A stretch of DNA of 64,000 nucleotides from an uncultured Clostridium sp. (GTDB lineage: Bacteria; Bacillota_I; Bacilli_A; RF39; UBA660). Shown here piece after piece: positions 3,780-33,053 of the stretch. The number at the start of each line of letters is the position of its first letter. Position 1 is the first letter of the stretch. The notes beneath the pieces are model-generated. The model saw nothing but the letters and a program-made list of their open reading frames with translations. It was not told the origin of the DNA and searched no databases. The stretch spans positions 1 to 64,000 of the forward strand of contig CAMIWC010000002.1 in the NCBI GenBank assembly GCA_946402315.1, given 5' to 3'. A program made the translations under genes and the position numbers.

Positions 3780-3808
3780 TTGTATTAAAACTATAATTCT
3801 TTTATAAT
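3780..3808 (+). promoter_or_regulatory. Promoter of Cys-rich pair 1
   Basis: TTGTAT (3780-3785), 17-bp spacer, TATAAT (3803-3808), followed by ATTAAGATGATA. The -35 begins at the end of the preceding terminator's T-run. The same arrangement recurs before pair 2. Confidence 0.75.
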
Positions 3809-3835
3809 TAAGATGATAAGATAGGATGGATAGAT

Positions 3836-4594
3836 ATGAAGAGAAAAATATTTTATGTTATGTTATTTACAATTATATGTTTAGTTCCAAGAGTAGATGC
3901 AGCAACTGCTAGAAAGACTTGTAATCAAATTGAACTTAAGAACTACAAAGAAATAGCAACTAATATGACAGCTAATTATGAATTAGTAGCTAATATGGAA
4001 ACTTATGATGATTATGATAATATTCCTATGGGTGGTACAGCTCAAGATTATTATTATAGAATTATTATCGATAATGTTACTGAAGAATTCTATATTAAAG
4101 TTGGAGCTCATAAGTTCTTATATAAAGATTCTAAAGATGGAAAACTAGTAGCTGATTATATGTACCATGGTGGAGCAAATGTAAATGTTGGTATTTATGT
4201 TGCTGGAAATGGAGATTGTAAAGATACTTTAGTCAGAAATATTGCTGTTAAATTACCATATTATAACGTATATAGTGTTTTTCCTGAATGTGAAGGAAAA
4301 GTGGGTATATTAAAAATATGTTCTCCTGATATTGATACATCTAAAATAAATGAAGAATCATTTAAAAAAATGGTAAAAGAACAAGAAGAAGAATATAACA
4401 AAGAAAATGCACCAGAAGAAAAAGAAGAAGTTAAAGAAGAAAAATGGTATAAAAAAATTATTAATTGGTACAACGATAATAAAAAATTAACTATTCCTGC
4501 TACAGTAGCAGTAATCGTTTTAATAGTATTAATAGTTATTAAAGTAAAACGTGATAATAAGAACAAAATAAAAGTAGATTTGGGGGATATTTAA
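3836..4594 (+). CDS. Pair 1 small protein: secreted, single-pass C-anchored protein
   Basis: A 252-aa protein with a signal peptide (about 1-22, ending VDAA), a ~160-aa extracytoplasmic domain and an acidic Lys/Glu linker (about 180-205). A C-terminal membrane helix (IPATVAVIVLIVLIVIKV) leads to a short basic tail ending KVDLGDI. Four Cys (in TCNQ, GDCKDT, PECEG, KICSPD) recur in the pair 2 paralogue. Paralogues lie at 7789 and 11755, each directly before a ~1040-aa Cys-rich secreted protein; here the gap is 1 nt. The ribosome site of the large gene (TTGGGGG) lies in the codons for the DLGD tail. I do not recognise the family. A membrane partner or anchor of the large protein is an inference from strict pairing. 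Confidence 0.7.
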   Translation: MKRKIFYVMLFTIICLVPRVDAATARKTCNQIELKNYKEIATNMTANYELVANMETYDDYDNIPMGGTAQDYYYRIIIDNVTEEFYIKVGAHKFLYKDSKDGKLVADYMYHGGANVNVGIYVAGNGDCKDTLVRNIAVKLPYYNVYSVFPECEGKVGILKICSPDIDTSKINEESFKKMVKEQEEEYNKENAPEEKEEVKEEKWYKKIINWYNDNKKLTIPATVAVIVLIVLIVIKVKRDNKNKIKVDLGDI

Positions 4595-4595
4595 T

Positions 4596-7500
4596 ATGAA
4601 AAAAATAGTATTAATTATAACTACAATATTTTGGATTGTTCCTTTAATTGTTTTTGCTGATTGTATTCAACCAATTTCTGGAGGAGGTAGTTCTGAACCT
4701 CCTGCACCAAGCTATGGTCCTGGTTGTGGCGAAGAAAATGCCAATACTTGTCTTAGTACAGGAAATGGATTTGGAGTTAGATTTCAATTATATGAGGTAA
4801 AAAGTAAAGACGAGATATATTTAAAAGGATACTTTGATGTTTTAAAAGGAACATTACCATCTAACACAAGAATTAGTGCTCCTGGGCATAATACTTTGTA
4901 TAATAAATTACATTGTACTAAGGTAACTAGTTTACAAGCTGCTAGAGATAAGAGAGAATCATATCTTATACCAATAAAAGATGTTACTGGAGATGGATAT
5001 ATTACAGATGAAGATATGAGAGGTACTGTAAAAAAATATCTAAATGGTGACTATGGAAAAGTATGGATTGATGATAATATTTGTTGCGGAGATAATAGCG
5101 CATATAAAAAAGGAGAATTAGCTACATGGGCTTTTGATTACGAAGGAAATACACCTAAGAGTGGATTCTTATATACATATTTCTTTACTCCAATATTAGA
5201 GGGAGAATATGAAACTGCTGCTAATTTATTTGGAATGACAGAAGATGCTTTAATGGAAATGCTTAATCATCCAGATGATTATTACATTACCGCTGAAGTA
5301 TTATATACACATTATGATAGTATTCCTAAAACACCATATTACTTTATGCCTGTTAGTGAAAGTGGATTTACTCATGGAGCTAGAGATGTTCATACAGCAA
5401 TTATAACTACTCCTAATGATCCAGATGCTTATTTGTTGATTCCAAATATGATAAAAAAGGTTAATGCTGCTAATACACTTTACTATAACTGGTATGGTTA
5501 TAGTGATGGAAAACAAAATTATAAAGCAACATGTGAATATGCCTATGGATTTGAAGCATGGAATATTAGAGAAATATGTGATGAATGTGGTAAAAGTTGT
5601 GAAAACGATTGTAAAGATACTTATCCAGATTCTGCCGAAAGATTAGCTTGTGCAAAATCTTGGTGTGCAATAAATGATCCAGATAATACTGAATGTGTTA
5701 GTTCATGTAGAACTCCTGTTCCAGATGATGCTGGATGCTTGCCAGGAGAGACTGATGGTAAACAATGTAGTGATTATAAAGCTAGTAGAGATTCTAATTC
5801 AGAAAAAGAATTAGATTGTGAAGAAACGGATGAATCTATAATAAATAATAAGACTCATCTTGCTGCTAAGGTTTGTTATGATGATAATTCAGATTTTAGT
5901 GATGGTAATACTGAAGATTTAGGTACAGATGATTTCGATTATGGAACTAAGTTCTATAAAATTGTTTGTGAAACAACTCTTGATTTTAAAGATCTTCCAG
6001 GAAAACAATATATTTACCTAGATCAAGAACAACCTATGTTTATTCATTTTAGTTATAAAGTTAATTATAAAAAAGAATGTACTTTATATTATAAAATTGC
6101 TAGTCAATTAAAGACTGACAAAACAGGACTTTGGACATTAGATTATTCTAAAAGTAGAATTAAATATGATATAGATGCTTTAGATAATGCTTATGAAGAA
6201 ACTGAAACTAAGATGAATGATTCTGAAACAACTGCTGAAGAAAAATTAATCTATCAAGCTGTATTAACTAATATTACTACAACTAAAAATAAATTAGAAA
6301 GTATTTATAAAAATGCTATTACGAGATTAGAAAACTTATCTAGATCTGAAGCACCTGAAATAGTTAAAGAAAATGATCTTGAATTAGTTTTATTTGATTA
6401 TTCAACATATACAGAGTATCGTCCTACTGGACCTGAATTTGTTTTAGTACCATATATATGTGAACCAATAGACAAAGAAGAATTAGGAACTAGACTAATA
6501 TGTTTATTTAATAATTATGAAGAAGTTCAATATATAACATATAAAGAAGATAGTTATGAATGTAGGGGTGAAGGTGGACAATATGTTTATGATAGTGTTC
6601 ATAATAAAGGAACATATACAGAAACTGTTTATTACACTTTACCAGATAGTTATATAGGAGCTCATTCTGATAACATTGGACCATATCATACTATAAGTGA
6701 TTGTGAAGATGCAGTATCTAGTTCAAATGGATTCTGTAAAATTGTTGAGTACACTTATGTATTACCTCCATTTGATGGAGTAAATCCAACTGGATACGCT
6801 AGTGAAGTAGCTAAAGTAGGAGATAAATTAACATTAAAATTTGAAGCTGGAGAATGTAATGAGTTTGGATTCACTTACAAATGTGATTATGAATTTGAAG
6901 ATAAATACTGTGAAGCATGTAAAGGAATAGATAAGACTTCTGAGGAGTATAAAAAATGTCTATATGAAAAATGTGGATGTGAAGCTTATTGTGGATCAGA
7001 TGCAGCTTGTAGATTCTTATATTGTCCAAAACCATGTGAAGGATGCGACTGGGGAAAAGAATTAGAAGATGATGAGTGCCAAAAATGTGATGACAGCTGT
7101 AAGTCTTTAAAAAATGGCGATGTTAAGAAATATACAGATTGTATTTATGATGAATGTTGTTATAAACCATGTAATGGAAATATAGCATGTGAAGAAAGAT
7201 GCTGCATAAGTAAATGTAATTATTTATATTCAGGAAATGCTTCTGAAAGACAAAAATGTATTGAAGAAGAATGCCCTAGTCCACCACCAGGAGGGACAAA
7301 CTATATATTTAGAACAGTATCATTACATAATCCATTCCCAGATAGAGGAACTGAAACAGGAGTAATTGGTAAAAACTGGTATAACAAAGAAAAAATTATA
7401 ACAGACGCTGATGAAGCTGGAAGATATCATGATAGTACTTCGGGATTTAATAATAGATATGAATATAGTATAAAAATCAATTCTAAACAATTGAAACAAG

Positions 7501-7712
7501 TTAAAAAGATGGTTAAAGAAGAAAAACAAAGAATAGATGGCGTTGAATATAATGGAACAACATCATATAAATTCTTTAAGAAATCTGATGCTTATACAAG
7601 TGGAAAATCACCTTATGCATATTGTAGTAAATTCTTATATGAAGACCTAGCTAATATAGGTGTTAATGTTCAAACAACTGAAGCAAGTTTATACTGTGTT
7701 AGCATTAATTAA
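4596..7712 (+). CDS. Pair 1 large protein: secreted Cys-rich surface protein
   Basis: A 1038-aa protein with an N-terminal signal peptide (about 1-21, ending VFAD) and no other membrane helix or LPXTG signal. It starts with a Gly-rich stretch (SGGGSS). It carries an EF-hand/dockerin-like loop DVTGDGYITDED at about residue 129 and roughly fifty Cys, densest at about 320-400 and 770-900 (motifs such as CGCEAYCGSD and CNGNIAC). A helical region near 525-585 separates the Cys-rich parts. The C-terminal ~130 residues (PFPDRGT, NWYNKE, YAYCSKFLYEDL) are the part best conserved among the three paralogues. Many disulfides and an extracellular location are likely. The function is unknown; an adhesin or structural surface role is inference. 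Confidence 0.75.
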   Translation: MKKIVLIITTIFWIVPLIVFADCIQPISGGGSSEPPAPSYGPGCGEENANTCLSTGNGFGVRFQLYEVKSKDEIYLKGYFDVLKGTLPSNTRISAPGHNTLYNKLHCTKVTSLQAARDKRESYLIPIKDVTGDGYITDEDMRGTVKKYLNGDYGKVWIDDNICCGDNSAYKKGELATWAFDYEGNTPKSGFLYTYFFTPILEGEYETAANLFGMTEDALMEMLNHPDDYYITAEVLYTHYDSIPKTPYYFMPVSESGFTHGARDVHTAIITTPNDPDAYLLIPNMIKKVNAANTLYYNWYGYSDGKQNYKATCEYAYGFEAWNIREICDECGKSCENDCKDTYPDSAERLACAKSWCAINDPDNTECVSSCRTPVPDDAGCLPGETDGKQCSDYKASRDSNSEKELDCEETDESIINNKTHLAAKVCYDDNSDFSDGNTEDLGTDDFDYGTKFYKIVCETTLDFKDLPGKQYIYLDQEQPMFIHFSYKVNYKKECTLYYKIASQLKTDKTGLWTLDYSKSRIKYDIDALDNAYEETETKMNDSETTAEEKLIYQAVLTNITTTKNKLESIYKNAITRLENLSRSEAPEIVKENDLELVLFDYSTYTEYRPTGPEFVLVPYICEPIDKEELGTRLICLFNNYEEVQYITYKEDSYECRGEGGQYVYDSVHNKGTYTETVYYTLPDSYIGAHSDNIGPYHTISDCEDAVSSSNGFCKIVEYTYVLPPFDGVNPTGYASEVAKVGDKLTLKFEAGECNEFGFTYKCDYEFEDKYCEACKGIDKTSEEYKKCLYEKCGCEAYCGSDAACRFLYCPKPCEGCDWGKELEDDECQKCDDSCKSLKNGDVKKYTDCIYDECCYKPCNGNIACEERCCISKCNYLYSGNASERQKCIEEECPSPPPGGTNYIFRTVSLHNPFPDRGTETGVIGKNWYNKEKIITDADEAGRYHDSTSGFNNRYEYSIKINSKQLKQVKKMVKEEKQRIDGVEYNGTTSYKFFKKSDAYTSGKSPYAYCSKFLYEDLANIGVNVQTTEASLYCVSIN

Positions 7713-7736
7713 GACGAATATATTTCGTCTTTTTTA
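7711..7736 (+). terminator. Intrinsic terminator after Cys-rich pair 1
   Basis: Stem AAGACGAA/TTCGTCTT, short AT loop, then a T-run. It overlaps the stop codon. Confidence 0.85.
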
Positions 7737-7765
7737 TTGTAATAATAATAGATATCTTTTATAAT
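7737..7765 (+). promoter_or_regulatory. Promoter of Cys-rich pair 2
   Basis: TTGTAA (7737-7742), 17-bp spacer, TATAAT (7760-7765), followed by TAAAATGATAG. The context CTTTTATAATTAA(A/G)ATGATA matches the pair 1 promoter, as expected of a duplicated unit. Confidence 0.75.
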
Positions 7766-7788
7766 TAAAATGATAGGGTAGGATGTAT

Positions 7789-8544
7789 ATGAAGAAGAAT
7801 ATTTTGTTTGTTTTAATGCTAGTATTTATACTATTCTTTGGAACAAGTGTAGATGCAGCTAAAAAGAAAAACTGTGATCAACAAGTTCTTAAACCAATTA
7901 AAGAATTAGCTTCTCAAGTAACAGTTAATTATGAATTGGTTACTTATATGGATACATATGGAGATTATAGTAGAGTTCCTGATGGAGGTAATATTCAAGA
8001 TTACTACTATAACATCATAATAGATAATATGAGTGAAGAAATATATGTAGATTTTGGACCATATACTAAATATTATAAAGATTCTAAAGATGGAAAATTA
8101 GTTGTTGAATCTGCATTTAAAGGTGGTGCCAAACTATCAATAAATATTTATTCAGCTACTGGTGGAGACTGTAAAGATACATTAATTAAAACTATAGTAC
8201 TCAAACTTCCTTATTATAATATTTATAGTATCTATCCAGAATGTGAAGGAAATGTTGGTAAACTAAAAATATGTTCTCCTGATATAGATACATCTAAATA
8301 CTTAGATGATGATTTTAGAAGAATAGTTAAACAAGAAGAAGAGGAATATAACAAAAAACAAGAACAAGAAGAAGAACATAATAAAAATGAAAAATGGTAT
8401 ATAAAAATAATTAACTGGTATAAAGATAATAAAAAATTAACTATTCCTGCAACAATTGCAGTAGTATTATTAATACTATTAATAGTAATTAAAGTTAAAC
8501 TTGATAATAAGAGCAAAGTAAAAGTTGATTTGGGGGATATTTAA
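7789..8544 (+). CDS. Pair 2 small protein: secreted, single-pass C-anchored protein
   Basis: Close paralogue of the gene at 3836. It has a signal peptide ending near VDAA, an extracytoplasmic domain with the same four Cys, and the shared stretches PEC(E)GNVG, LKICSPDIDTSK and NKKLTIPAT. The acidic/Gln linker, C-terminal membrane helix and basic tail KVKVDLGDI also match. I prefer the ATG at 7789 over 7783 because the latter overlaps AGGATG, which sits at the ribosome-site position used in pair 1. The product is 251 aa. It is translated just ahead of the large paralogue (8546), with the Shine-Dalgarno for that gene inside the tail codons. The function is unknown. Confidence 0.7.
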   Translation: MKKNILFVLMLVFILFFGTSVDAAKKKNCDQQVLKPIKELASQVTVNYELVTYMDTYGDYSRVPDGGNIQDYYYNIIIDNMSEEIYVDFGPYTKYYKDSKDGKLVVESAFKGGAKLSINIYSATGGDCKDTLIKTIVLKLPYYNIYSIYPECEGNVGKLKICSPDIDTSKYLDDDFRRIVKQEEEEYNKKQEQEEEHNKNEKWYIKIINWYKDNKKLTIPATIAVVLLILLIVIKVKLDNKSKVKVDLGDI

Positions 8545-8545
8545 G

Positions 8546-11500
8546 ATGAAGAAAATATTATTAGTAATAACATTGTTAGTGTTTCCAATGGTAATCTTAG
8601 CACAAGATTGTCCTAGACCAATTTCTGGAGGAGGTAGTTCGTATGTTACACCATCTGATCCAGGAAGAGGATGTACTGCTTGGGATGGAAATACTTGTAA
8701 TAGTGATAGAAAAATTGGAATAAGATTCCAATTCTATAAAATTAATAGTAAAACTGATATTCAATTAAAAGGGTACTTTGATGTTTGGGATTCATTACCA
8801 ATGGCAAATGCTAGAATAAGTAAGCCTGGACAGAATACTCTTAAGAATAAGATTAATTGTACTAAAGTAGCTTCTTTGACTGCTGCTAGAACAAAAAGAG
8901 AAGGTCACCTTTTACCAGCTGATCTTAATAATGATGGATATATAAGTGATAGTGAAATGCAAACAGTAGTCCAAAACTATGTTGATGATGCATATGGTAA
9001 TACATATTTTGATTCAACTTTAAAGACAGCATTTAATAATGGTACAATGGCTACTTGGGCTTTCTATTATGAAGGGGAAACACCAATAAGTGGATATTTA
9101 TATACTTATTTCTTTAAGCCAATACTAGATGGATACTATGATGAAGCTGCTGCATTATTTGGAATGAGTAGAAGAGATTTAGATGAAATGTCTAAAGATC
9201 CAGACAAATATTACATTACAGCTGAAGTTATGTATGGGCATACAGATGCTCATGTAGGAACTCCATATTATTTAATGCCTGTAAGTGAAAGCGGATATAC
9301 TCATGGAGCTGAAGATAAGTATGTAGCAATTATAACTACTCCACAAGATGTTAATACTGTTGGTTTAATACCTAATTATATTAATAAAGTTTCAGCTACT
9401 GGTATTCATAGATATATGAACTATGGTCATGGATATGCTAATGATTCTTATGCATATCTAGCAACATGTAATAATGCTTATGGATTTGAAGCATGGAATA
9501 TAAGAGATGTATGTCCTCCATGTACTACAACACCAACTTGTGAAGTTGATTGTGGTGATTATGATTCAGACTCTGCTGAAAGATTAGCTTGTGCTACATC
9601 ATGGTGTGCTATTAATGATTCTGGAAATTCATCTTGTGTAAGTTCATGTACAAATCCTATTCCAGATGATTCTGGGTGCTTGCCTGGGGAAACTGATGGT
9701 AAACAATGTAGTGATTACAAAGCTGGTAGAGATAATAATTCATCTAAAACATTAGATTGCGAAGAAACAAGTCAATCTATAATTAATAATAAGACTCATC
9801 TTTCATCAAGAGTTTGTTATGATGATGATACTGATTTTGATGATGGAACAACTACTGATTTAGGTACAACAGATTTCGATTATGGAACGAAGTTCTATAA
9901 AATTGTATGTGATACTACATTTGATTTTAAAGATCTTCCAGGAAAACAATATATTTACTTAAGTAAGGAACAACCAATGAGTATCCATTTCAGTTATAAG
10001 GTTAATTATAAGAAAGAATGTACATTAAAATATAAAACATCAAGTGACAAAAAAGCATCAATTGGACTTTGGACAACAAATTATTCTAATAGTAGATTAA
10101 AATATGATATAGATGCTTTAGATAATGCTTATGAAGAAACTGAGAATAAGATGAATGATCCTGAAACAACTGCTGAAGAAAAGTTGGTTTATCAAGCTGT
10201 ATTAACTAATATTACTGCTACAAAAAATAAATTAAGTGGAATAGCAACTTCCGCTTCTTCAAGATTAGAAACATTATCAAGAACAGAAACTCCTGAAAAT
10301 ATATTACGTAATGATATAGAATTAGTATTATTTGATTATTCAACATATACAGAGTATCATCCAACTGGACCTGAATTTGAATTAATTCCAGTAGTATGTG
10401 AACCAATTGATTCAGAAACATTAGGAACTAGATTTATCTGTTTAATGAATAAAGTAGAAGAAGTACAATATGTAACAATAGGTTCAACTACCTATGAATG
10501 TAAGGGTGAAGGTGGACAATATGTCTATGATGCTGCTCATAATAAGGGAACTTATACTGAGACATTGTATTATACTTTACCAGATAGTTATATTGGAGCT
10601 CATTCTGATAACATTGGACCATATCATACAATAAGTGATTGTGAAGATGCTGTATCTGAAGCTAATGGGTTCTGTAAGGTAGTAGAGTATGCTTATGTAT
10701 TGCCTCCATTTGATGGAATAAGTCCAACTGGATACGCTAGTGAAGTAGCAAAGGTTGGAGATAAATTAACATTAAAATTTGAAGCTGGAGAATGTAATGA
10801 ATTCAGTTTCACTTATAAATGTGATTATGATTTCGATGATACTTATTGTGAGGCTTGCCAAGGAATGGATAAGACTTCTGAAGCTTATAAAAAATGTTTA
10901 TATGAAAACTGTGGATGTGAAGCTTATTGCGGATCTGATGTAGTATGTAGATTCTTATATTGCCCAGAACCTTGTGAAGGATGTGGATGGGGTCAAGTAT
11001 TAAGAGATGATGATTGCCAAGAGTGTGAGAAAAAATGTTCTTCATTACAAATGAATGCTAAAAAATATACAGATTGTATTTATGATGAATGTTGTTATAA
11101 ACCATGTAATGGAAACATAGCATGTGAAGAACAATGTTGTGTAAGTAAATGTAAGCATTTATATTCTGGTAATAGTGCTGCATATGAGACATGTTTAAAG
11201 GAACAATGTCCTGACCCTCCTCCTGATAAACCAGATGATCCGGGAAAAGACTATTTGTTTAGATCAATTTCTTTATATGATCCATTCCCAGATAGAGGAA
11301 CAAAAACTGGATTAATTGGTAATAACTGGTACAACAAAGAAAGATATATAACAGATGCTGGTGAAGCAGGACAATATCATGATAATACATCGGGATTTGG
11401 TAAAACAGATTATGAATATAGTATTACTATTAATTCTAAACAATTAAAACAAGTTAAGAAAATGGTAGAAGATGAAAAACAAAAAATAGATGGCGTTGAA

Positions 11501-11662
11501 TATAATGGAACAACATCATATAAATTCTTTAAAAAATCTAATGCTTATACAAGTGGAAAATCACCTTATGCATATTGTAGTAAGTTCTTATATGAAGACT
11601 TAGCTAATATAGGTGTTAGAGTTAAATCAACTGAAGATCTATACTGCCAAAAAGTAGATTAA
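8546..11662 (+). CDS. Pair 2 large protein: secreted Cys-rich surface protein
   Basis: Paralogue of the 4596 protein along its whole length. The ATG at 8546 is chosen because GGGGG lies just upstream; an in-frame ATG at 8525 precedes that site. The 1038-aa product has a signal peptide (ending near LAQD), a Gly-rich SGGGSS segment and a canonical EF-hand-type loop DLNNDGYISDSE at about residue 126. The same Cys framework follows (CGCEAYCGSDVVC, CNGNIACEEQCC), with a nearly invariant C-terminal domain ending at a Cys. The long identical blocks (for example GETDGKQCSDYKA, LPDSYIGAHSDNIGPYH) point to fairly recent duplication of pairs 1 and 2. The function is unknown. Confidence 0.75.
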   Translation: MKKILLVITLLVFPMVILAQDCPRPISGGGSSYVTPSDPGRGCTAWDGNTCNSDRKIGIRFQFYKINSKTDIQLKGYFDVWDSLPMANARISKPGQNTLKNKINCTKVASLTAARTKREGHLLPADLNNDGYISDSEMQTVVQNYVDDAYGNTYFDSTLKTAFNNGTMATWAFYYEGETPISGYLYTYFFKPILDGYYDEAAALFGMSRRDLDEMSKDPDKYYITAEVMYGHTDAHVGTPYYLMPVSESGYTHGAEDKYVAIITTPQDVNTVGLIPNYINKVSATGIHRYMNYGHGYANDSYAYLATCNNAYGFEAWNIRDVCPPCTTTPTCEVDCGDYDSDSAERLACATSWCAINDSGNSSCVSSCTNPIPDDSGCLPGETDGKQCSDYKAGRDNNSSKTLDCEETSQSIINNKTHLSSRVCYDDDTDFDDGTTTDLGTTDFDYGTKFYKIVCDTTFDFKDLPGKQYIYLSKEQPMSIHFSYKVNYKKECTLKYKTSSDKKASIGLWTTNYSNSRLKYDIDALDNAYEETENKMNDPETTAEEKLVYQAVLTNITATKNKLSGIATSASSRLETLSRTETPENILRNDIELVLFDYSTYTEYHPTGPEFELIPVVCEPIDSETLGTRFICLMNKVEEVQYVTIGSTTYECKGEGGQYVYDAAHNKGTYTETLYYTLPDSYIGAHSDNIGPYHTISDCEDAVSEANGFCKVVEYAYVLPPFDGISPTGYASEVAKVGDKLTLKFEAGECNEFSFTYKCDYDFDDTYCEACQGMDKTSEAYKKCLYENCGCEAYCGSDVVCRFLYCPEPCEGCGWGQVLRDDDCQECEKKCSSLQMNAKKYTDCIYDECCYKPCNGNIACEEQCCVSKCKHLYSGNSAAYETCLKEQCPDPPPDKPDDPGKDYLFRSISLYDPFPDRGTKTGLIGNNWYNKERYITDAGEAGQYHDNTSGFGKTDYEYSITINSKQLKQVKKMVEDEKQKIDGVEYNGTTSYKFFKKSNAYTSGKSPYAYCSKFLYEDLANIGVRVKSTEDLYCQKVD

Positions 11663-11689
11663 GGCGAATTTTATTCGCCTTTTATTTTT
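11661..11689 (+). terminator. Intrinsic terminator after Cys-rich pair 2
   Basis: Stem AAGGCGAAT/ATTCGCCTT with a 3-nt loop and a T-rich tail, overlapping the stop codon. Confidence 0.85.
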
Positions 11690-11699
11690 GCTAAAATGG

Positions 11700-11728
11700 T
11701 TGAATTATTTAGATAAAAAAACTATAAT
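11700..11728 (+). promoter_or_regulatory. Promoter of Cys-rich pair 3
   Basis: TTGAAT (11700-11705), 17-bp spacer, TATAAT (11723-11728). A purine-rich ribosome site GGAGTGGG follows before the ATG at 11755. Confidence 0.7.
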
Positions 11729-11754
11729 AATATTAGTATGATAGGAGTGGGAAA

Positions 11755-12504
11755 ATGCGTAAAAAACAATTAATAATTATGTTTTTAATTATATTTGCAT
11801 TTGCCTTTACAAAGGTTGATGCCGCAACTTGTTCTAACTTAACTGATTTGAAGACAGAAGCTAGTTTAATTGAGGTAAATTATGAACTTGTTAAACCTCA
11901 TGCTGGTGATAATGGAGATATGGAAGAATCTCTATATGGATACGATTTATATATTTCAAATGTATCTGATAATTTTGAAATAAGAATAGGTGGTATTTAT
12001 TATTCTTCTAAAGATGCCAAAAATGGAACATTATACTTAAAAGAAGCATTACAATACGGAGGATATACTACTACAGTTGAAGTATATGGTACAGAAAAAT
12101 CAGGATGTAAGGATTATAAGATTAGAGGTATATCTGTTAAACTACCTAGATATAATAGGTTTAGTGAATATGAAGAATGTATTGGTCATACAGCAGAATA
12201 TCCAATTTGTTATCCTGATGCTAATACAGAAAAATATTATGATGAAACATTTAAAGAAGAAGTATCAAAACAAGCAATAAAATATGAAGAAAAACAAAAA
12301 AAGAAAAATAAAAAAGAAAACAATAACACAAAAAAGAAAAACGTTTTTGAGTTATATCTAGATAATGCAGGAATAACGGTACCAATTACTATACTTATTG
12401 TTGTAGTAATTGCTGGAATTATATATAAAGTAATTGTTGATGATAAGAAAAAAGTAAAAATAGATTTGGGGGTAAAGAAAAATGTTAAAAAACGTCGTAA
12501 ATAG
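11755..12504 (+). CDS. Pair 3 small protein: secreted, single-pass C-anchored protein
   Basis: The more diverged third paralogue (249 aa). The signal peptide ends near VDAAT. The extracytoplasmic domain keeps NYELV, KLPRYN and two Cys motifs (SGCKDY, YEECIG). It then has a very Lys-rich linker (about 180-195), a membrane helix (about 205-228) and a longer basic tail (KIDLGVKKNVKKRRK). Unlike pairs 1 and 2 it overlaps the following large gene by 23 nt, so the two should be translationally coupled. The TTGGGGG ribosome site for the large gene is again in the DLG codons. The function is unknown. Confidence 0.7.
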   Translation: MRKKQLIIMFLIIFAFAFTKVDAATCSNLTDLKTEASLIEVNYELVKPHAGDNGDMEESLYGYDLYISNVSDNFEIRIGGIYYSSKDAKNGTLYLKEALQYGGYTTTVEVYGTEKSGCKDYKIRGISVKLPRYNRFSEYEECIGHTAEYPICYPDANTEKYYDETFKEEVSKQAIKYEEKQKKKNKKENNNTKKKNVFELYLDNAGITVPITILIVVVIAGIIYKVIVDDKKKVKIDLGVKKNVKKRRK

Positions 12505-15500
12505 ATTATTAGTTGTTTCTTTATTGATACTTACACCAATTGCTGTATTTGCTCAAGATTGTACAACTCCAGGAATTGGAGGAGGTGCATCTTCTGGTGG
12601 AGGAGGTACAGCTTATTCTGAAGGATGTAGTAGTGCAACTTGTGTAAGTATTCATAATGGAAAATATGTTGGAGTTAGATTCCAAATATATGAGTATTCT
12701 GGTGGAAGTGCTGATAATATTAAAATGATTGGTAAAGGAGTAGATGTTTGGGCAACAAACGAACTTAATGAACCTAATAAGTTCTTCTTTAGTAGTCCAT
12801 CAACTCCAAACTTACAAATAAAATCAAAATGTACAACTCCAGGAAATACATTTTATCCTACTACAATTCAAGGAAATCATACTTTAAGTTTTGCTGAATA
12901 TAGTAGTGGAAAATATGGTCAAGTTAAAGTTGATACAAGTTTAACCGATAGATATAAAAAACATACAATTAATACATGGGCATTTGTTCACGATGGAAAT
13001 AAACCAATTAGTGGATGGATATCAGAAAACTTATTGAAGAAGTTAATTGATGGATCTTCTACTAAGTTAGCTGAAGTTAAATCTCTATTCAGTTTGACTG
13101 ATGCTGAAATGACTAGAATCAGAACTAATCCTAAAAACATATATATTACAGCTGAAATATTATATCGTTTCTGGGAAAATCATACAGATCACTGGTATTT
13201 AGGAACAGTTTCTGAATCAGGAAGTGTTCATGGATATGGTGCATTACATAACGCTTTATATATTAGCGCATCTCATGATCCTGATGTTGGTAAGATTGTA
13301 CCAAACTATATTAAAAAGACTGAACCTACTACAGTAGGATTCATGGGAATAGGTAGTGGAGTAGGTGCTGAAGCAGCATGTAACGTTGCTAGAGGATACG
13401 CTGTATGGAATCTAGAAATGGTTTGTTGGGAATGTGGAGACAGTTGTGAAACAGCTTGTCAATACGCTCAAAAAGGAACTCAAGAAAGAGCAGCCTGTGC
13501 CGTTTCATATTGTAGTACTAAAGAACCTAATAATACTAGTTGTTTCAAAACTTGTACTACAGTTCCTGATGATGTTGGTTGTGATCCGGATACTGAAAAG
13601 AAATGTTCTGATTATAAAAACAAACCAGTTAAGAAATCAGATAATTGTAAAAATTTAGAATCTACTGATACTGAAGGGTTTAGTACTTCTATATCAGCTA
13701 AGATGTGTTACGATGAAAAAAGTGATTATGGAGATGGAAATGATGTAGAGTATTCATTAGGTACTCAAACATATTCAAATACTATTTACTATAAGATAGA
13801 TTGTACTGAAAAAATGGAGATTTCTGGTTTACCTTATCAACCACAATCTATTTACTTAACTGATAACACTCCTGGTAATTTCCATTTCAGTTATAAAGTT
13901 CTTTATAATAGAACTTGTGAATTATTCTATAAAACAAGTTTAGCTTATCGTAAAACTCATCCAAATACCTATTGGATTAAAGTAAATAATGATAGTGAAT
14001 GTGCTACTAAATGTAAACTAGATGAAGATAGAAAAGCTTTGGAAGATGCTGTTCCAAAAGCTGAAGCATTACTTGCTGAATATCAAGCTGCTTTAGCATT
14101 AAATCCAACAGATGAAAAACTAATCCAAAATGTTAGAGTTCAAGAAGGAACTATAAATTTCATTAATAATGTAATGATACCTAATCTAGATAAAACTAGA
14201 ACTAATGCGAAAGAAAGATTTAAAAATATATCTAATGAATCGACTCCAGAAGAGTTAACAATTAATGAATTAAAATTAAGAACATATAAATATGATAAAA
14301 TATCTGAACATGAAGATACACCACTAGATATGATTCCAATTGTTTGTACTCCAACTAATACCGAAACAGAAAAGAAAGAAAGATTCTTATGTATGCTTAA
14401 TGGTATGGATGGAGAAGGAATAAGAACTATTAAAATTCATGGTATCGATTATGAATGTGTAGGTACTGGTGGAGTTGTAGAAGGTACTGGAAGTACAGTT
14501 ACTTACGAAGAAGTAGTTGTTTACTCTGTACCAGATAGTTATGTATCAACTCAAGTAAATTCTGCTGGTAAAATATATCATTATGAAGATCAATGTGATG
14601 ATGCAACTAAAGGTGCTAATGGATTCTGTAAAATCATAGCATTTGGTTATACATTCCCAGCCTTTGACGGAAAAGATCTTCAAGATTATATTGATCAAGT
14701 TAATAGTGTGCCTGATAAAGTAACATTATCTATTCAAGGTGGACTATGTGATGAACTTGCTTACGACTTTACTTGCGATTACAAAGTTGAAGATCAATAT
14801 TGTACAGGTTGCGATGCTTATCCAGTTGGTTCAGATGCTTACATAGCATGTTATGAAGAAAACTGTTCATGTGATGCTTATTGTGGATCTGATGTAGTGT
14901 GTAGATATAAATATTGTCCTAAGTTATGTAAGGGATGTAATTGGAAAGAAGTAGAGGAGTCATGTACAAATTGTACTTCTAAGTGTTCCAATTATGTTGT
15001 AAATTCAAAAGAATATGTAACATGCTTCTATGATGAATGTTGTACCTCTCAATGTGATGGTAACTGTGGATGTACTTATAGTTGTTGTGCTACTAAGTGT
15101 GATGAATTATATTCATCTAATGCAACTAAATTAAAAGAATGTAAAACAGAATGTACTAAAGACTTACAAAGTTGTAAGGGTGGAAACGATTACTTATATC
15201 GTAATATATCTTTACATAATCCGTTCCCAGATAGAGGAACAGCTACTGGAAATATTGGAAACAACTGGTATAATAAAGAAAAGTATATTACTAATACTGA
15301 TGAAGATGGATACAAAGATAGTACTGATGGATTCTCAGAAGAGTATGAGTATTATATTAAGATTGATTCAAAGCAATTAAAAGAAGTAAAAAAGATGATT
15401 GAAGAAAACGGCGTTGATGAAGAAGGTAATAAAGATTCAACTATGTATAAAGCATTTGGTAAATCAAATTCATATATTAGTAAGAGAGATTCAAGAGCTT

Positions 15501-15598
15501 ATTGTAGTAAATTCTTACATGAAGATTTATCTAGAACAGGAGCTACTGTAAAAGTTAATTATGAATCTAGTACTAATTGTAAAAGTATAGGAGGTTAA
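12482..15598 (+). CDS. Pair 3 large protein: secreted Cys-rich surface protein
   Basis: A 1038-aa diverged paralogue of the 4596 and 8546 products. It has a signal peptide (about 1-24, ending VFAQD), a Gly/Ser-rich start, two Cys-rich regions (CGDSCETACQ, CSCDAYCGSDVVCRYKYC, CDGNCGCTYSCC) and the conserved C-terminal block (PFPDRGTATG, NNWYNKEKYIT, RAYCSKFLHEDL). The EF-hand-like loop of the other two copies is absent at the matching place. A long helical, Ala/Glu-rich segment lies near 520-590. The gene is followed at 4 nt by a pseudopilin-like gene whose ribosome site AGGAGGT overlaps this gene's end. Surface role and partner are inferred only. Confidence 0.75.
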   Translation: MLKNVVNRLLVVSLLILTPIAVFAQDCTTPGIGGGASSGGGGTAYSEGCSSATCVSIHNGKYVGVRFQIYEYSGGSADNIKMIGKGVDVWATNELNEPNKFFFSSPSTPNLQIKSKCTTPGNTFYPTTIQGNHTLSFAEYSSGKYGQVKVDTSLTDRYKKHTINTWAFVHDGNKPISGWISENLLKKLIDGSSTKLAEVKSLFSLTDAEMTRIRTNPKNIYITAEILYRFWENHTDHWYLGTVSESGSVHGYGALHNALYISASHDPDVGKIVPNYIKKTEPTTVGFMGIGSGVGAEAACNVARGYAVWNLEMVCWECGDSCETACQYAQKGTQERAACAVSYCSTKEPNNTSCFKTCTTVPDDVGCDPDTEKKCSDYKNKPVKKSDNCKNLESTDTEGFSTSISAKMCYDEKSDYGDGNDVEYSLGTQTYSNTIYYKIDCTEKMEISGLPYQPQSIYLTDNTPGNFHFSYKVLYNRTCELFYKTSLAYRKTHPNTYWIKVNNDSECATKCKLDEDRKALEDAVPKAEALLAEYQAALALNPTDEKLIQNVRVQEGTINFINNVMIPNLDKTRTNAKERFKNISNESTPEELTINELKLRTYKYDKISEHEDTPLDMIPIVCTPTNTETEKKERFLCMLNGMDGEGIRTIKIHGIDYECVGTGGVVEGTGSTVTYEEVVVYSVPDSYVSTQVNSAGKIYHYEDQCDDATKGANGFCKIIAFGYTFPAFDGKDLQDYIDQVNSVPDKVTLSIQGGLCDELAYDFTCDYKVEDQYCTGCDAYPVGSDAYIACYEENCSCDAYCGSDVVCRYKYCPKLCKGCNWKEVEESCTNCTSKCSNYVVNSKEYVTCFYDECCTSQCDGNCGCTYSCCATKCDELYSSNATKLKECKTECTKDLQSCKGGNDYLYRNISLHNPFPDRGTATGNIGNNWYNKEKYITNTDEDGYKDSTDGFSEEYEYYIKIDSKQLKEVKKMIEENGVDEEGNKDSTMYKAFGKSNSYISKRDSRAYCSKFLHEDLSRTGATVKVNYESSTNCKSIGG

Positions 15599-15601
15599 AA
15601 A

Positions 15602-16111
15602 ATGAAAGTATCAATTTGGGGTTATTTATTCTTATTCTTAGGACTATTAGGAATTGTCTTAATAAATGTATTTGGTGAAATAACAGTAAGTGACCAACAA
15701 AACTATTATTCTTTAAAAGAAATTACAAAAGCAGCTATGTTAGATGCTGTAGATACCGTTGCTTATCAATATGGTTTAGGATATGATGGTATTACTCAAA
15801 CTACTGATTCTGAATCAGTACACTGTAATGCTGGAGTTCCTGGAACAATAAGAATTATTAAAGAAAGATTTGTTGAGTTATTCATTGCTAAATTTGCTGA
15901 AGAGGCAGACTTAAATAGAAACTATGAAATAGTATTTGAAGACATTGATGAATGTCCTCCTAAAGTTACTGTAACTGTTAAATCAACTCAATCATTCAGT
16001 TTTATTCAAAAAGCCTTTGGAATGGATAAAAATGGAACAACTGTTGATTCTGCTGATATAGTTAATACTTTATCTGGAATCTTAGAAACTGATGAACCAT
16101 TTGAAAAATAA
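15602..16111 (+). CDS. Pseudopilin-like (TadE-like) membrane protein
   Basis: A 169-aa protein with one N-terminal hydrophobic helix (about residues 7-28), then a predicted amphipathic helix (SLKEITKAAMLDAVDTVAYQ) and a beta-rich domain with two Cys (VHCNAG, DECPPK). This layout, a single N-terminal helix continuing into a helix then a small globular domain, resembles TadE-type minor pseudopilins, as does the gene at 21358. There is no GFxxxE motif. Translation starts immediately after the third Cys-rich pair (ribosome site within its stop region), so it belongs to that transcript. It links the Cys-rich block to the Tad locus that follows. The assignment is tentative. Confidence 0.5.
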   Translation: MKVSIWGYLFLFLGLLGIVLINVFGEITVSDQQNYYSLKEITKAAMLDAVDTVAYQYGLGYDGITQTTDSESVHCNAGVPGTIRIIKERFVELFIAKFAEEADLNRNYEIVFEDIDECPPKVTVTVKSTQSFSFIQKAFGMDKNGTTVDSADIVNTLSGILETDEPFEK

Positions 16112-16112: not shown

Positions 16113-16145
16113 AAAAAGAACGTTTAATAAACGTTCTTTTTTATT
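16113..16145. terminator. Bidirectional terminator between convergent genes
   Basis: Near-perfect stem AAAAGAACGTTTA/TAAACGTTCTTTT with T-runs on both strands. It serves the pseudopilin-like gene (+) and the thioredoxin-like lipoprotein (-). Confidence 0.85.
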
Positions 16146-16566
16146 TAATAAAACCAGTTTTCTTTAATTTGGATTCGATTACATCTTTAGTAACACTTGC
16201 TCCTGATAGTCTATCCATTGCACTTGTTTCTTTACCATCTTTGAAAAATATAACAGTAGGAGTACCATCAACATTATAATCTTTTAAGAACTGAGATAAA
16301 TCTTTTTGATCCATATCAGTTATGTTTAAACTATATCCTACAACTTTATTTTTTTCTAAGACATTTTTAAATTTTGGAGTGAATTCTGCACAATTACCAC
16401 AACCTGTTTGAACTATTTCTAATACAAAAGAATCTTTATTATCTAATTTTTTATTAAATTCTTTGTATGTAATATCTACAAGATAAGTTTCATTAGAATT
16501 ATTTTCACATCCAATTAATAAGAAACATAGTACAAACAAAAGACTAAATACTATCTTTTTGTTCAT
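16141..16566 (-). CDS. Thioredoxin-like lipoprotein
   Basis: A 141-aa protein on the minus strand. Start ATG at 16566 is preferred: GAGGTG lies at 16571-16576, and the in-frame ATG at 16578 overlaps that site. The N-terminus is a lipoprotein signal (LLIGC), then a thioredoxin fold with a CGNC redox site (about residue 55-58) and the cis-Pro loop GTPTVIFF. This gives a membrane-anchored extracytoplasmic thiol-disulfide protein. It may act as oxidase, reductase or isomerase; the direction cannot be told. It stands beside three very Cys-rich secreted proteins, which are plausible clients. The CxxC pair GN is unlike the usual GP or PH. Confidence 0.85.
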   Translation of the reverse strand: MNKKIVFSLLFVLCFLLIGCENNSNETYLVDITYKEFNKKLDNKDSFVLEIVQTGCGNCAEFTPKFKNVLEKNKVVGYSLNITDMDQKDLSQFLKDYNVDGTPTVIFFKDGKETSAMDRLSGASVTKDVIESKLKKTGFIK

Positions 16567-16617
16567 AATACACCTCATTTAGAATATTAACATATTAACC
16601 AAAATTTAACAATAAGA

Positions 16618-16652: not shown

Positions 16653-16841
16653 TATACTAGAGGGTTTGTAGTGTGACTGGCGTTTTTATTATGTCAAATT
16701 TTGAAAAGTTTATATTTCCTATAGTAATTCTATTGAAGACAAATTTTAAAAATAATAGAATAATATTATAGGGAGTCACCTATATATCTTTATGGTGTAA
16801 TAGAATTATGTACTTAGTATTAATAAGAAAGGGTGAATAAT
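16653..16841 (+). promoter_or_regulatory. Structured ~190-nt leader of the Tad operon with alternative pairings
   Basis: The stretch from the expected transcription start to the ATG holds no gene. GTGACT (16673-16678) can pair with AGTCAC (16774-16779). Inside it CCTATA (16718-16723) pairs with TATAGG (16767-16772), and ATTCTATT (16727-16734) with AATAGAAT (16754-16761). A second AATAGAATTA (16799-16808) offers TAATTCTATT (16725-16734) a 10-bp alternative. CACC (16777-16780) overlaps AGTCAC and can pair with GGTG at 16794-16797, or with GGTG in the ribosome site (16832-16835). This is a candidate cis-regulatory RNA of no class I recognise. Confidence 0.45.
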
Positions 16842-17720
16842 ATGAATAGTACACAAATTAAAATTAAAAAGTTTTTAGGTAATAGAAATACGGTTACAAT
16901 TTTATGTGCAATTATTGGTATTGCTGTTTTATTCGTTGGTTATACTATGACTGTTAATAGAGCGATTGAACCAGTACAAGTACCATATGCTAATAATGAT
17001 ATCCAACCTCGTGATAAGATTACTGAGGATGATATTAGTTATATGCCTCTAGCTAAGGCAGCATTAGATAAGATGAAAGGATCTATTTTAACTGATAAAG
17101 ATGATATTATTAATCACTATGCTGCAACTAATTCTTTAATTCCTAACGGAAGTTTATTCTATTCTTCTGCAGTAGTTAAAGAAAGACCTAACGAAGCAGT
17201 ATTTGAAGCAGGACCTAATATGAGATTAACATTCTTTAAAGTTAGTATGGATTCAAGTTATGTTAATTCTATTTTGCCTGATAATTATATAGATATATAC
17301 GCAAGCGTAAGAGATCAAACTACAGGAATGCCTTCTGTTGGTTTATATATTCAAGACGTAAGAGTTCTATCTGTTAAGACTGCAGATGGAGAAAACGTAT
17401 TTGAAAATACTGAAGAAAAAAGACAACCAGCTTATATTTTAGTAGCTGTTACTGAAACAGAATTCATGACATTAATGAAAGGTAGTGGATTAGGAGTTAC
17501 ATTCTCTTTAATACCAACTGCTAAGACTAAAAAAGATGTAGAAGAAGAGTCTAAGATGGTTTCTCAAGACTTTGAAGATTATGTTAATACAAGAGCTGGT
17601 GAATTTACATATAGTGGAGATAACGTAATCGATACTACAACTGATAAATCTGGTCAAGATGCACAAACAAAAACAGATGATACAACAACTAAAACAGAAG
17701 ATACTACTAAAAAACAATAA
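16842..17720 (+). CDS. CpaB/RcpC-like Tad pilus assembly protein with SAF domain
   Basis: A 292-aa protein. ATG at 16842 follows AGAAAGGGTGA; an in-frame GTG at 16833 lies within that site. One N-terminal membrane helix (about 20-38) is followed by a SAF-type segment (VPYANNDIQPRDKITEDD, about 46-65), a CpaB-like beta domain and a disordered Thr/Lys/Asp tail. CpaB-type proteins sit on the outer side of the membrane in Tad pilus machines and may bind peptidoglycan. It is the first gene of a run with TadA, TadB and TadC, which strongly supports the call. Confidence 0.8.
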   Translation: MNSTQIKIKKFLGNRNTVTILCAIIGIAVLFVGYTMTVNRAIEPVQVPYANNDIQPRDKITEDDISYMPLAKAALDKMKGSILTDKDDIINHYAATNSLIPNGSLFYSSAVVKERPNEAVFEAGPNMRLTFFKVSMDSSYVNSILPDNYIDIYASVRDQTTGMPSVGLYIQDVRVLSVKTADGENVFENTEEKRQPAYILVAVTETEFMTLMKGSGLGVTFSLIPTAKTKKDVEEESKMVSQDFEDYVNTRAGEFTYSGDNVIDTTTDKSGQDAQTKTDDTTTKTEDTTKKQ

Positions 17721-17756: not shown

Positions 17757-19382
17757 ATGGATGAAGCAATGAATCTTAATGGTATGGGTAGTTTAACACA
17801 ACAAGTGCCAACTATACCAACACCAGTTGAAACAGTAGAACAACCACAACCAGTAGTTGAAGAGACTCCAGTTGCTTCGCCAGAAGTTGCTCCAGAACCT
17901 GTAAACACTGAACCAGTTAAAGCTAATAATAATCTAGGATTTGAAGAACTAGATATGGTTCAAGAGTTAAGAGATGAGGAAGAACTACAAAAGAGACAAA
18001 AAAATGAAAGTATTTTCTCATCTATGGAATTTGGTCCATTAAAAAAATACTTAGAAGATGATGATGTTACCGATATCTCTTATAGTAATGGTGGACAATT
18101 ATGGTTAAAAACTTTAAGTAAAGGTGTTTATCGAGTAGATGAGCCTGGAGTAAATGATTCTCTTATTGAAAAAATAGCTTTCCAATGTTCAAACGTAATG
18201 GGTAAAACATTTAATATGGCTCATCCATTCTTGGACTCAGAATCAGCTGAGTTACGTATGAACTTTATACATGAATCTATTGCCAGAAATGGTATTGCGG
18301 TAGTTTTCCGTAAAACTCCTGCTAAGATTCGTTTAAAGAAAGAAAAATTAATGGAAGATAATTATGTATCACTTAGTGTACATGATTTCTTAATAAAAGC
18401 AGTACAAGGACATTGTAATATCATAATGTGTGGAGAAACTGGTTCTGGTAAAACTGAGTTCTTAAAGTATCTAGCAAGTCATACTTTTGAAAATGAAAAA
18501 GTAGTTACTATTGAGGATACACTAGAACTTCACTTGGATAGAATTTATCCACATCGTGATATAGTTGCGATGAAAACTAATAATATAGCAAGTTATTCAG
18601 ATGTACTTGTTACCTGCATGAGACAAAACCCAATATGGATATTACTTTCCGAGGTACGTAGTGCAGAAGCAGTTACTGCTGTACGTAACTCTATATCATC
18701 AGGACACTTTATTTTATCAACAATCCATGCTGATAAAGCATCAAATATACCATATCGTTTGTATTCATTACTTGAATCAAATATTGATGTAGAACAATTC
18801 TTAAATACAATGTATCGTTACATTCAATTAGGAGTTTATTTAAGAGGTAGATTTGATCCAAATCAAGGTAAATATGTTCGTGAAATTGGAGAAGTATGTG
18901 AATTTTACGTAGATGATGATAATAATTGTGTTTCTAATGTAATATATCAAAGAACAATCACTGGAGATGTAACTTATAAACCTATAAGTGAACATCTACT
19001 TCAATATATAGAAGGTCAAGGAATAGATATTAGTGATATTAGAAAGAGTAATGGTAATCTAGAGAAGATTCAAAACTATGATGATGAATTAAGTGCTGAA
19101 GCTGTTAAAGAAAAAGAAGAAACAGTAGAAGAGGTTAAACCAGTAGAACAAGTTACTCCAGTAGTAAATCCTACTCCAGTAACTCCAAGTCCTACAGTAA
19201 CATCAATTCCTGTAGTTAATCCACAACCAGTAGTTACACCTCAAGTTCAACCTACAGTTCCTGTTACTCCAGTACAACCACAAGTTGTTCAACAACCAAG
19301 CACAACTCCAGTTACTCCTCAACCAATACCTAAATTTACTATTCCAATTCCAGATTCAAATACAAATCCAAACGTAGGATAG
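17757..19382 (+). CDS. tadA: TadA/CpaF-type secretion ATPase with Pro-rich tails
   Basis: A 541-aa GspE-superfamily ATPase that would power Tad pilus assembly at the cytoplasmic face. It has Walker A GETGSGKTE (about residue 226), a Walker B-type stretch IWILLSEVRSAEA (about 295-305) and a His-box-like STIHADKASN (about 322). Residues 1-45 and about 470-541 are low-complexity Pro/Val/Gln-rich extensions (motifs PQPVVEE, TPVTPQP) unusual for CpaF (~450 aa). The Walker B Glu is kept, though LLSEVR replaces the common LLGEIR. AAAGGGAGA lies before the ATG. TadB follows 16 nt downstream. Confidence 0.9.
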   Translation: MDEAMNLNGMGSLTQQVPTIPTPVETVEQPQPVVEETPVASPEVAPEPVNTEPVKANNNLGFEELDMVQELRDEEELQKRQKNESIFSSMEFGPLKKYLEDDDVTDISYSNGGQLWLKTLSKGVYRVDEPGVNDSLIEKIAFQCSNVMGKTFNMAHPFLDSESAELRMNFIHESIARNGIAVVFRKTPAKIRLKKEKLMEDNYVSLSVHDFLIKAVQGHCNIIMCGETGSGKTEFLKYLASHTFENEKVVTIEDTLELHLDRIYPHRDIVAMKTNNIASYSDVLVTCMRQNPIWILLSEVRSAEAVTAVRNSISSGHFILSTIHADKASNIPYRLYSLLESNIDVEQFLNTMYRYIQLGVYLRGRFDPNQGKYVREIGEVCEFYVDDDNNCVSNVIYQRTITGDVTYKPISEHLLQYIEGQGIDISDIRKSNGNLEKIQNYDDELSAEAVKEKEETVEEVKPVEQVTPVVNPTPVTPSPTVTSIPVVNPQPVVTPQVQPTVPVTPVQPQVVQQPSTTPVTPQPIPKFTIPIPDSNTNPNVG

Positions 19383-19398: not shown

Positions 19399-20307
19399 AT
19401 GCATATACCTGTAGTAGAATTAATAATTTTACTATTATTAGGGACTTTTGCCATACTATATTACATCAAAAAGGGAGATTCCTTATATAAGTTTGTAGTT
19501 AATGGTGCAACGGTAGTTTATGATAAATATGCTCCGTTTTCTTATAAAACAGTCCGTGAGAAAGTAAAAGAATTAGGACAAAACTATACTGCTAAAGATT
19601 ATGGTGTTCAAGTTGCTCTCTTTGGTGGAGGAGCATTCTTAATTTCATACTTATATTTCTATAATATATTTGTATCTATAATCTATGTAATTGTGGCAAT
19701 TTCATTAATTCCATACTTACAATACTTAAGATGTAAAAGATTATATAGTGAATATATTTTTGAACAAATACAAGTATATACAACAAACACTATAATGGAG
19801 TTCCAAACAACTCAATCATTTGTTAAGGCTCTTGAAGGTGTATATGCATCTGGTGTACTTCAAGATCCAGTTTTATCTGATTTAAAAATAATGATAGATA
19901 TGTCATATCAAAATGGTACGATTGATGCATCTCTTGCTTATATGAATGAAAGATATGATTTCTATATGACAAGAAATATGCACCAATTATTCCTTCAAAT
20001 TACAAAAGAAGGTTCAAGAGATACTAACGATGTACTTGAAAATATGTTACAAGATATTGATACACTAGTTGAAGGTGTATATCGTGACCGTATGGATAGA
20101 AAAAACTTCCATCGTCAATTTGTTCAATATGGACTTATGCTTTACTTATTAGTAATGCTTATCCAATATTTGATACAAGTTGATACGTATCGTCAATTAT
20201 TAAAAGAACCACTTATTCTAGTAGCACTTCATATAATAGTTCTTTTAAATAGCTATTTCTTAGTAAATGGTGAAAAATATTATAATGAGAATGTGGGGGC
20301 TGAGTAG
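19399..20307 (+). CDS. tadB: TadB-like inner-membrane platform protein
   Basis: A 302-aa protein with an N-terminal membrane helix (about 4-22), a helix pair near 70-105 and two C-terminal helices (about 250-290). They flank a cytoplasmic helical domain (about 110-230, containing QTTQSFVKALEGV and LFLQITKEGSRDTNDVLENML) of the T2SSF/TadB type. It would form the platform on which the TadA ATPase acts. Order TadA-TadB-TadC and short spacing (2 nt to the next gene) support the call. The gene symbol is by position and fold rather than by close identity. Confidence 0.75.
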   Translation: MHIPVVELIILLLLGTFAILYYIKKGDSLYKFVVNGATVVYDKYAPFSYKTVREKVKELGQNYTAKDYGVQVALFGGGAFLISYLYFYNIFVSIIYVIVAISLIPYLQYLRCKRLYSEYIFEQIQVYTTNTIMEFQTTQSFVKALEGVYASGVLQDPVLSDLKIMIDMSYQNGTIDASLAYMNERYDFYMTRNMHQLFLQITKEGSRDTNDVLENMLQDIDTLVEGVYRDRMDRKNFHRQFVQYGLMLYLLVMLIQYLIQVDTYRQLLKEPLILVALHIIVLLNSYFLVNGEKYYNENVGAE

Positions 20308-21357: not shown

Positions 21358-21813
21358 ATGCGTGAGGCGATAGGTGGAACATTACTTTTGTACATAGTGC
21401 TTATTTTCTTATTTATATATATTATATTTATGGGTGTAGTAATTCACTATGGTCGTGTTTTTAGATGGAAGAATACAGTAGTGTCTTACATCGAGCAATA
21501 TGAAGGGGTTACTGATGATGTTGTTACTTTAGTAGAAAGAAATGTTGTTGCTAAAGGATACAATGATGGTCCTATTTGTGTTTGTTATAATCAAGCACCT
21601 AATGGGAATAGATATTATAATATAAAAATGTATATTAGATTTGCTATGCCATTAGTAGATAAGAGATTGTGGCCATATATACAAATAACAGGACAAACCT
21701 CAGGTATTGCTAAACTTAAGAATGGTGCTGCTAAAGATATCATAATTAAGTCATGTGATGAAGGATATGAAAATATTTCAAGTAAGAACGGACTAAAAAG
21801 CGACGGATGTTAG
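21358..21813 (+). CDS. TadE-like minor pseudopilin
   Basis: A 151-aa protein with one N-terminal membrane helix (about 8-28, LLLYIVLIFLFIYIIFMG), then a helical stretch (KNTVVSYIEQYEGVTDDVVTLVERN) and a small beta-rich domain with three Cys (PICVCY, KSCDEG). The layout parallels the protein at 15602. It sits between the pilin and the TadZ-like gene, as TadE/TadF pseudopilins often do. AAGAAGGTGA precedes the ATG. TadE is the best guess; no diagnostic motif proves it. Confidence 0.6.
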   Translation: MREAIGGTLLLYIVLIFLFIYIIFMGVVIHYGRVFRWKNTVVSYIEQYEGVTDDVVTLVERNVVAKGYNDGPICVCYNQAPNGNRYYNIKMYIRFAMPLVDKRLWPYIQITGQTSGIAKLKNGAAKDIIIKSCDEGYENISSKNGLKSDGC

Positions 21814-33028: not shown

Positions 33029-33053
33029 AATTAGTTTACTAATTCTTTTTTTA
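33027..33053 (+). terminator. Intrinsic terminator after prepilin A
   Basis: Stem AGAATTAGT/ACTAATTCT with a tight loop and T-run; overlaps the stop. Confidence 0.8.

Follow-up and report, generated by a model that had tools for sequence, protein, structure and literature searches.

Tandem gene pairs heading a Tad-like pilus locus in uncultured Bacilli: candidate exchangeable end-pieces of the pilus

The window analyzed here, i.e., the 64,000 nucleotides (nt) at positions 1 to 64,000 of contig CAMIWC010000002.1 (assembly GCA_946402315.1; 0.96 Mb, 74% complete), comes from an uncultured Clostridium sp. (GTDB lineage Bacillota_I; Bacilli_A; RF39; UBA660). At 3836-15598, ahead of a Tad-like pilus operon, it carries three tandem pairs of genes, each encoding a membrane-anchored protein (SMALL; 252, 253, and 249 amino acids [aa] in copies 1, 2, and 3) and a predicted secreted, Cys-rich protein (LARGE; 1038 aa in each copy, with 53, 51, and 55 Cys, respectively). 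This locus raises the question of what the two proteins do together, and what the repeated pairs have to do with the pilus genes behind them. An earlier note on this DNA placed the pairs correctly next to a Tad operon but treated the operon as a mere neighbour; as judged from gene context in related genomes, LARGE is almost certainly part of the Tad locus itself. We further propose, with about even confidence, that LARGE sits, as an exchangeable part, at the distal end of the Tad filament; a DUF5411 protein would connect the two in the manner of a pilin-like adaptor, and SMALL would help with loading from its anchor in the membrane.

Related records were metagenome-assembled genomes of uncultured Bacilli, Tenericutes, and Erysipelotrichaceae, largely from rumen and gut; the SMALL family and LCT, a ~135-aa C-terminal domain shared by LARGE proteins, were recognized by profiles. 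To obtain an unbiased set, 80 loci were chosen by TadA alone, 52 of which had CpaB and at least 7 kb before CpaB. Immediately upstream of CpaB, 51 of these 52 loci encode DUF5411, 49 encode SMALL, and 48 encode LARGE/LCT, with all three present in 48; maps of ~60 loci gave the common gene order SMALL, LARGE, DUF5411, CpaB, TadA, TadB, TadC, TadE-like, CpaE-like. Of 288 genomes of the order, 228 encode LCT. In genomes drawn from across the class, the domain occurred in 33 of 38 members of its own family and in none of the 258 genomes from other families. The class-wide distribution of SMALL resembles that of LCT; when 193 genomes of the family were searched with a profile made from the three window SMALL proteins, 90 had relatives, and SMALL was never found alone (both, 21 genomes; LCT alone, 7; neither, 5; Fisher p=0.003). 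Weak SMALL matches in other families, which align solely with the charged linker and membrane helix, were rejected, and weak DUF5411 matches in other families fell in loci without a recognized Tad gene (short contexts). Among the papers searched, none links RF39 with Tad pili.

Across this locus, divergence rises from the motor outward, as expected for a part that faces targets. Median identities over 150 random pairs of loci were 68% for TadA, 62% for TadB, 54% for TadC, 47% for CpaE, 44% for DUF5411, and 41% for CpaB; the values for LCT (31%, versus 26% for shuffled sequences) and SMALL (29% versus 26%) were barely above controls, and at 26% versus 25% for shuffled sequences, between-genus divergence of the N-terminal part of LARGE is saturated.

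With regard to LARGE, 64 homologues chosen by gene position only range from 574 to 1566 aa, with a median of 38 Cys. By hydropathy, 58 of the 64 have a signal peptide, of type I, and in all 64 the sequence past the N-terminus is free of membrane helices; LCT (consensus YRxISLxNPFPxxRxxGxNW ... Y..xLxPxxIxxIRxYN ... CxSxFL) is present in 55, while a C-terminal sorting signal is absent. The structural model of LARGE (predicted local distance difference test [pLDDT] score of 69) shows an ordered N-terminal domain of alpha/beta type (roughly residues 51-262), a central region of strands that includes a long helical hairpin (521-582), and Cys-rich helical hairpins, with LCT poorly modelled; compared by fold with the PDB, it had no credible match. 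SMALL homologues share four invariant cysteines, and all 67 carry a C-terminal membrane helix; the AlphaFold2 (AF2) model of SMALL (pLDDT 87.9) predicts a seven-strand sandwich, a linker helix, and the membrane helix, and its nearest PDB folds are generic immunoglobulin (Ig)-like domains (E 0.06 or worse). The statement in the earlier note that neither protein has a recognizable family was borne out: searches of both against Pfam and NCBIfam gave nothing convincing (weak Baculo_F, EF-hand, and LIC_10190 matches below cut-off), none of 30 LARGE proteins scanned had a Pfam match, and the best PDB matches by sequence had E 0.2-0.5.

The threefold series of open reading frames (ORFs) described earlier was confirmed, with a copy-to-copy spacing of ~3.95 kb; for LARGE2, the start at 8546 is preferred over a listed TTG at 8525. 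Terminator-like hairpins follow pairs 1 and 2, as had been noted, and none follows pair 3, which ends 3 nt before the DUF5411 gene. Similar TTGNAN-17-TATAAT boxes precede each SMALL gene, but the promoters claimed earlier can only be considered putative because the overall scan yielded fewer hits than shuffled sequence (81 versus 106). Pair 3 is indeed diverged (LARGE1/LARGE3 identity, 37-39%; SMALL1/SMALL3, 34%), while pairs 1 and 2 are closer (LARGE1/LARGE2, 69%; SMALL1/SMALL2, 60%); the "long identical stretches" attributed to the latter were a generous description of blocks that are 80-92% identical, with longest exact runs of 35-53 nt. Synonymous divergence between pairs 1 and 2 is lower toward the C-terminal part, a pattern that is suggestive only, and gene conversion was rejected as the test was not significant (p=0.06).

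In relatives, SMALL and LARGE lie within a few nt of each other, most commonly with a 4-nt overlap, which suggests translational coupling in most of them. The trees of the two proteins are congruent: in both, window pairs 1 and 2 are sisters and branch with the first pair of the nearest relative, while the second pair of that relative groups with window pair 3; likewise, pair 2 of L079 is sister to pair 2 of L098. By this tree evidence, SMALL and LARGE duplicate as a pair, and a two-cassette array is older than the species split, with the third cassette a duplicate of the first type. A survey of pair number showed that most genomes have one copy, and that ~40 of the 228 genomes have two or three LCT genes, with three in 8 (counted from the genome table). 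Coupling, congruent trees, joint duplication, and the absence of SMALL without LCT thus uphold the two-part surface unit suggested previously, but the real unit is wider than the pair, with LARGE-DUF5411 as a constant core that heads the Tad operon.

Nor is the pairing strict, as had been claimed, because one sub-clade swaps SMALL for a sortase-like protein. In six genomes without SMALL (L196-L201), the sortase-like gene is coupled to LARGE-DUF5411-Tad in place of SMALL, which leaves LARGE-DUF5411-Tad as what is held constant. The encoded protein has a conserved His and Cys, with an Arg in most, and a Pfam Sortase match (E about 1e-5) just below the cut-off; genes for an Ig-like surface protein and a multi-membrane-helix protein adjoin it. 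LARGE in this sub-clade likewise has no sorting signal. The source genome encodes four sortases. A ~530-aa membrane protein (RKPYAFLIKNF family, DUF4352-like) is encoded at 53563-55149 of the window, ~38 kb from the pairs, and on 32 related contigs its relatives are encoded within the Tad loci, where they frequently come right before SMALL-LARGE or sortase-LARGE.

The DUF5411 protein matches PF17424 with 119 bits against a curated cut-off of 30. Its family consensus reads MKES.WGY..I.LG....., followed by a membrane-linked helix and a small domain, and a WG|Y-like start is conserved. One homologue (L056:6140-8491; 783 aa, 49 Cys) is extended by a Cys-rich region of ~650 aa, and some other loci have shorter extensions; the DUF5411 position can therefore present a large Cys-rich domain, carried by an N-anchored stem, and proteins of the L056 type resemble tip pilins that bear a distal domain. 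Beyond DUF5411 follow a terminator, a divergent gene for a thioredoxin-fold lipoprotein (in relatives, 31 of 112 loci also have it close to SMALL), and the Tad-like operon (Table 1). Assignment to Tad is based on clear TadA/CpaF and CpaB/RcpC homologues; RcpC scores above the Pfam cut-off, and TadA and CpaB score under the NCBIfam equivalog cut-offs. The labels TadB, TadC, TadE, and CpaE were given by position, size, and membrane pattern; the TadB- and TadC-position proteins had no T2SSF match at E<=1, and are strongly conserved within the family, with the expected position, length, and membrane helices. A 53-aa pilin-like ORF is conserved in place among relatives. The only Peptidase_A24 in the genome is encoded beside a PilC-like gene on another contig.

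Table 1. Features of the SMALL-LARGE array and the adjoining Tad-like operon
Feature	Position	Strand	Remarks
SMALL1	3836..4594	+	signal peptide, Ig-like ectodomain, C-terminal membrane helix (predicted; AF2 pLDDT 87.9)
LARGE1	4596..7712	+	predicted secreted, Cys-rich; LCT at 7293-7709
Terminator-like hairpin after pair 1	7711..7731	+	
SMALL2	7783..8544	+	
LARGE2	8546..11662	+	LCT at 11243-11659
Terminator-like hairpin after pair 2	11661..11681	+	
SMALL3	11755..12504	+	
LARGE3	12482..15598	+	LCT at 15182-15595; 23-nt overlap with SMALL3
DUF5411 protein	15602..16111	+	proposed pilin-like adaptor with an N-terminal membrane helix; PF17424 E=1.6e-34
Bidirectional terminator-like hairpin	16113..16141	.	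after pair 3-DUF5411 unit
Thioredoxin-fold lipoprotein (CGNC)	16141..16578	-	possible disulfide catalyst for Cys-rich proteins
CpaB-like	16833..17720	+	TIGR03177 E=1.2e-11, RcpC E=1.5e-7
TadA/CpaF-like ATPase	17757..19382	+	
TadB-position membrane protein	19399..20307	+	no Pfam match
TadC-position membrane protein	20310..21089	+	no T2SSF match
Flp-like pilin candidate, 53 aa	21163..21324	+	MKESTGELNMTLVTV...
TadE-position small membrane protein	21358..21813	+	
CpaE-position protein	21826..22812	+	

Other secretion and pilus genes were also observed. A small membrane protein is encoded after CpaE (22888-23193) and is conserved in this final position of the Tad operon in many relatives; its T4SS_pilin match is weak (E=8e-4) and falls short of the cut-off. 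Apart from this operon, the window encodes two proteins with classical type IV prepilin N-termini (32474-33756; GFTLIELLAVVVILGLL) and a type IV secretion-like cluster (34776-41878) with T4SS-pilin-like, TrbL-like, and VirB4/TraG-like ATPase proteins and a glucosaminidase + SpoIID protein. A second type IV filament system is encoded on contigs C7 and C12 of the source genome, as PilC/ComGB-like proteins together with a single prepilin peptidase.

In the model that we propose, the three pairs would be paralogous, exchangeable end-piece cassettes for a single Tad-like pilus. LARGE would be exported via Sec as a non-pilin protein, its cysteines would be oxidized, possibly by the neighbouring thioredoxin-fold lipoprotein, and the co-translated, membrane-anchored, Ig-like SMALL would hold it at the outer face of the membrane. 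LCT would dock on DUF5411, a short N-anchored pilin-like protein that would enter the filament once the TadA-driven machine starts polymerizing, and the hypervariable N-terminal ~900 residues of LARGE would face outward, setting what the pilus binds. We infer the position of LARGE on the pilus tip from its Tad-locus membership, and would put the chances of it being there at one in two; we likewise infer the physical contacts, the adhesive role, and the disulfide catalysis. More tentatively, and with somewhat less than even confidence, the locus may represent a tip cassette of two non-pilin components, an Ig-like loader anchored in the membrane and a hypervariable, Cys-rich end-piece whose C-terminal docking domain is peculiar to it. 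Such a cassette would have evolved in one monoderm family as that family's way of fitting out a Tad pilus, with tandem cassettes swapped and, in one sub-clade, a rewiring to a sortase.

Several observations weigh against an end-piece role. Only 2 of 52 DUF5411 proteins have a prepilin leader (G/A-x4-E/F) within the first 16 residues, and the status of DUF5411 as a pilin is uncertain because this standard motif is missing; the tip pilins PilX and GspK likewise lack Glu5 (PMC7541494). LARGE shows no PilY1 beta-propeller (Pfam; PDB by sequence and fold), no vWA domain in Pfam scans, and no likeness to any adhesin in Pfam/PDB searches. In addition, the sortase-like swap, with its conserved His and Cys and, in most, Arg, is no less consistent with wall anchoring than with pilus loading, and some SMALL-LARGE pairs (L051, L066, and L067) are located away from any Tad gene. 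These last two observations also support the main rival explanation, i.e., that LARGE is a surface adhesin tethered by SMALL, or by a sortase-dependent route in one sub-clade, and merely co-expressed with the Tad pilus; the strict coupling and co-duplication of the pair point the same way, as does the high-confidence Ig-like sandwich with a C-terminal membrane helix, a plain anchor design. However, LARGE is linked most tightly and most constantly with DUF5411 and CpaB rather than with SMALL, a pure anchor would not require a Tad operon in >90% of loci, and LARGE lacks a sorting signal; we therefore regard a tethered adhesin as unlikely, if still worth taking seriously.

Alternatively, the Tad-like machine could be a secretion system (a pseudopilus pump) with LARGE as its released substrate. 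LARGE is soluble in design, and this explanation is kept alive by a gene-context model that called a DUF5411-containing operon of Clostridia secretion-related (PMC9523054); on the other hand, Sec export alone would already release LARGE from a single-membrane cell, the co-encoded Flp-like pilin candidate, conserved in place, argues for a filament, and the conserved LARGE tail suits docking as well as it suits an export signal, which makes secretion improbable. Tandem copies with patchy identity and the saturated N-terminal divergence of LARGE could also indicate that the pairs are variable surface antigens, recombining inside the array to evade immunity or phages, and that their position next to Tad genes is incidental; given one copy in most genomes, a non-significant test for patchiness (p=0.06), and family-wide Tad linkage, we give this explanation very little credence.

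SMALL and LARGE represent two families that are absent from Pfam, NCBIfam, and PDB, yet are present in most genomes of a large uncultured gut-type Bacilli family, and DUF5411 (PF17424), so far without an assigned function, gains a place and a testable role. If an end-piece role is true, the kept docking tail and saturating front of LARGE would make the specificity element of monoderm Tad pili readable from genomes. Among known systems, an operon in Roseburia, Ruminococcus, and Eubacterium that encodes CpaF, PilC/GspF, DUF5411, and an internalin-B-like protein (PMC9523054) shares with this locus DUF5411, a pilus ATPase, and a large surface protein, but SMALL or LCT were not reported there. PilY1 is a soluble protein with a type I signal peptide, a poorly conserved N-terminus, and a conserved C-terminal domain that contacts minor pilins, and occurs in Myxococcus as three clusters per single machine (PMC7541494). 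Like PilY1/PilC1 of type IVa pili, LARGE is a big Sec-exported non-pilin with a type I signal peptide and no other helix, a variable front and conserved tail, and alternative copies per machine; unlike PilY1, it has no beta-propeller, has a ~135-aa tail domain of its own, and goes with a Tad-like machine and a membrane-anchored partner. In Tad systems, the tip complexes of Kil pili, four in number and exchangeable, have many predicted disulfides (PMC12075869), and CpaL is a tip candidate (PMC12607857); TadG, CpaL, and KilN are, like LARGE as proposed here, large distal Tad components, exchangeable in Kil and disulfide-rich (PMC12075869, PMC12607857). These proteins are, however, pilins in which an N-terminal pilin helix is fused to a distal domain, while LARGE has a standard signal peptide, lacks any hydrophobic helix after it, and has neither prepilin leader nor pilin helix, and its stem would be the separate DUF5411 protein; the vWA distal domain, found in CpaL and not in every tip pilin, is also absent from LARGE. 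By the features compared here, LARGE stands outside both the PilY1 and the Tad tip-pilin families, yet most plausibly works the same way.

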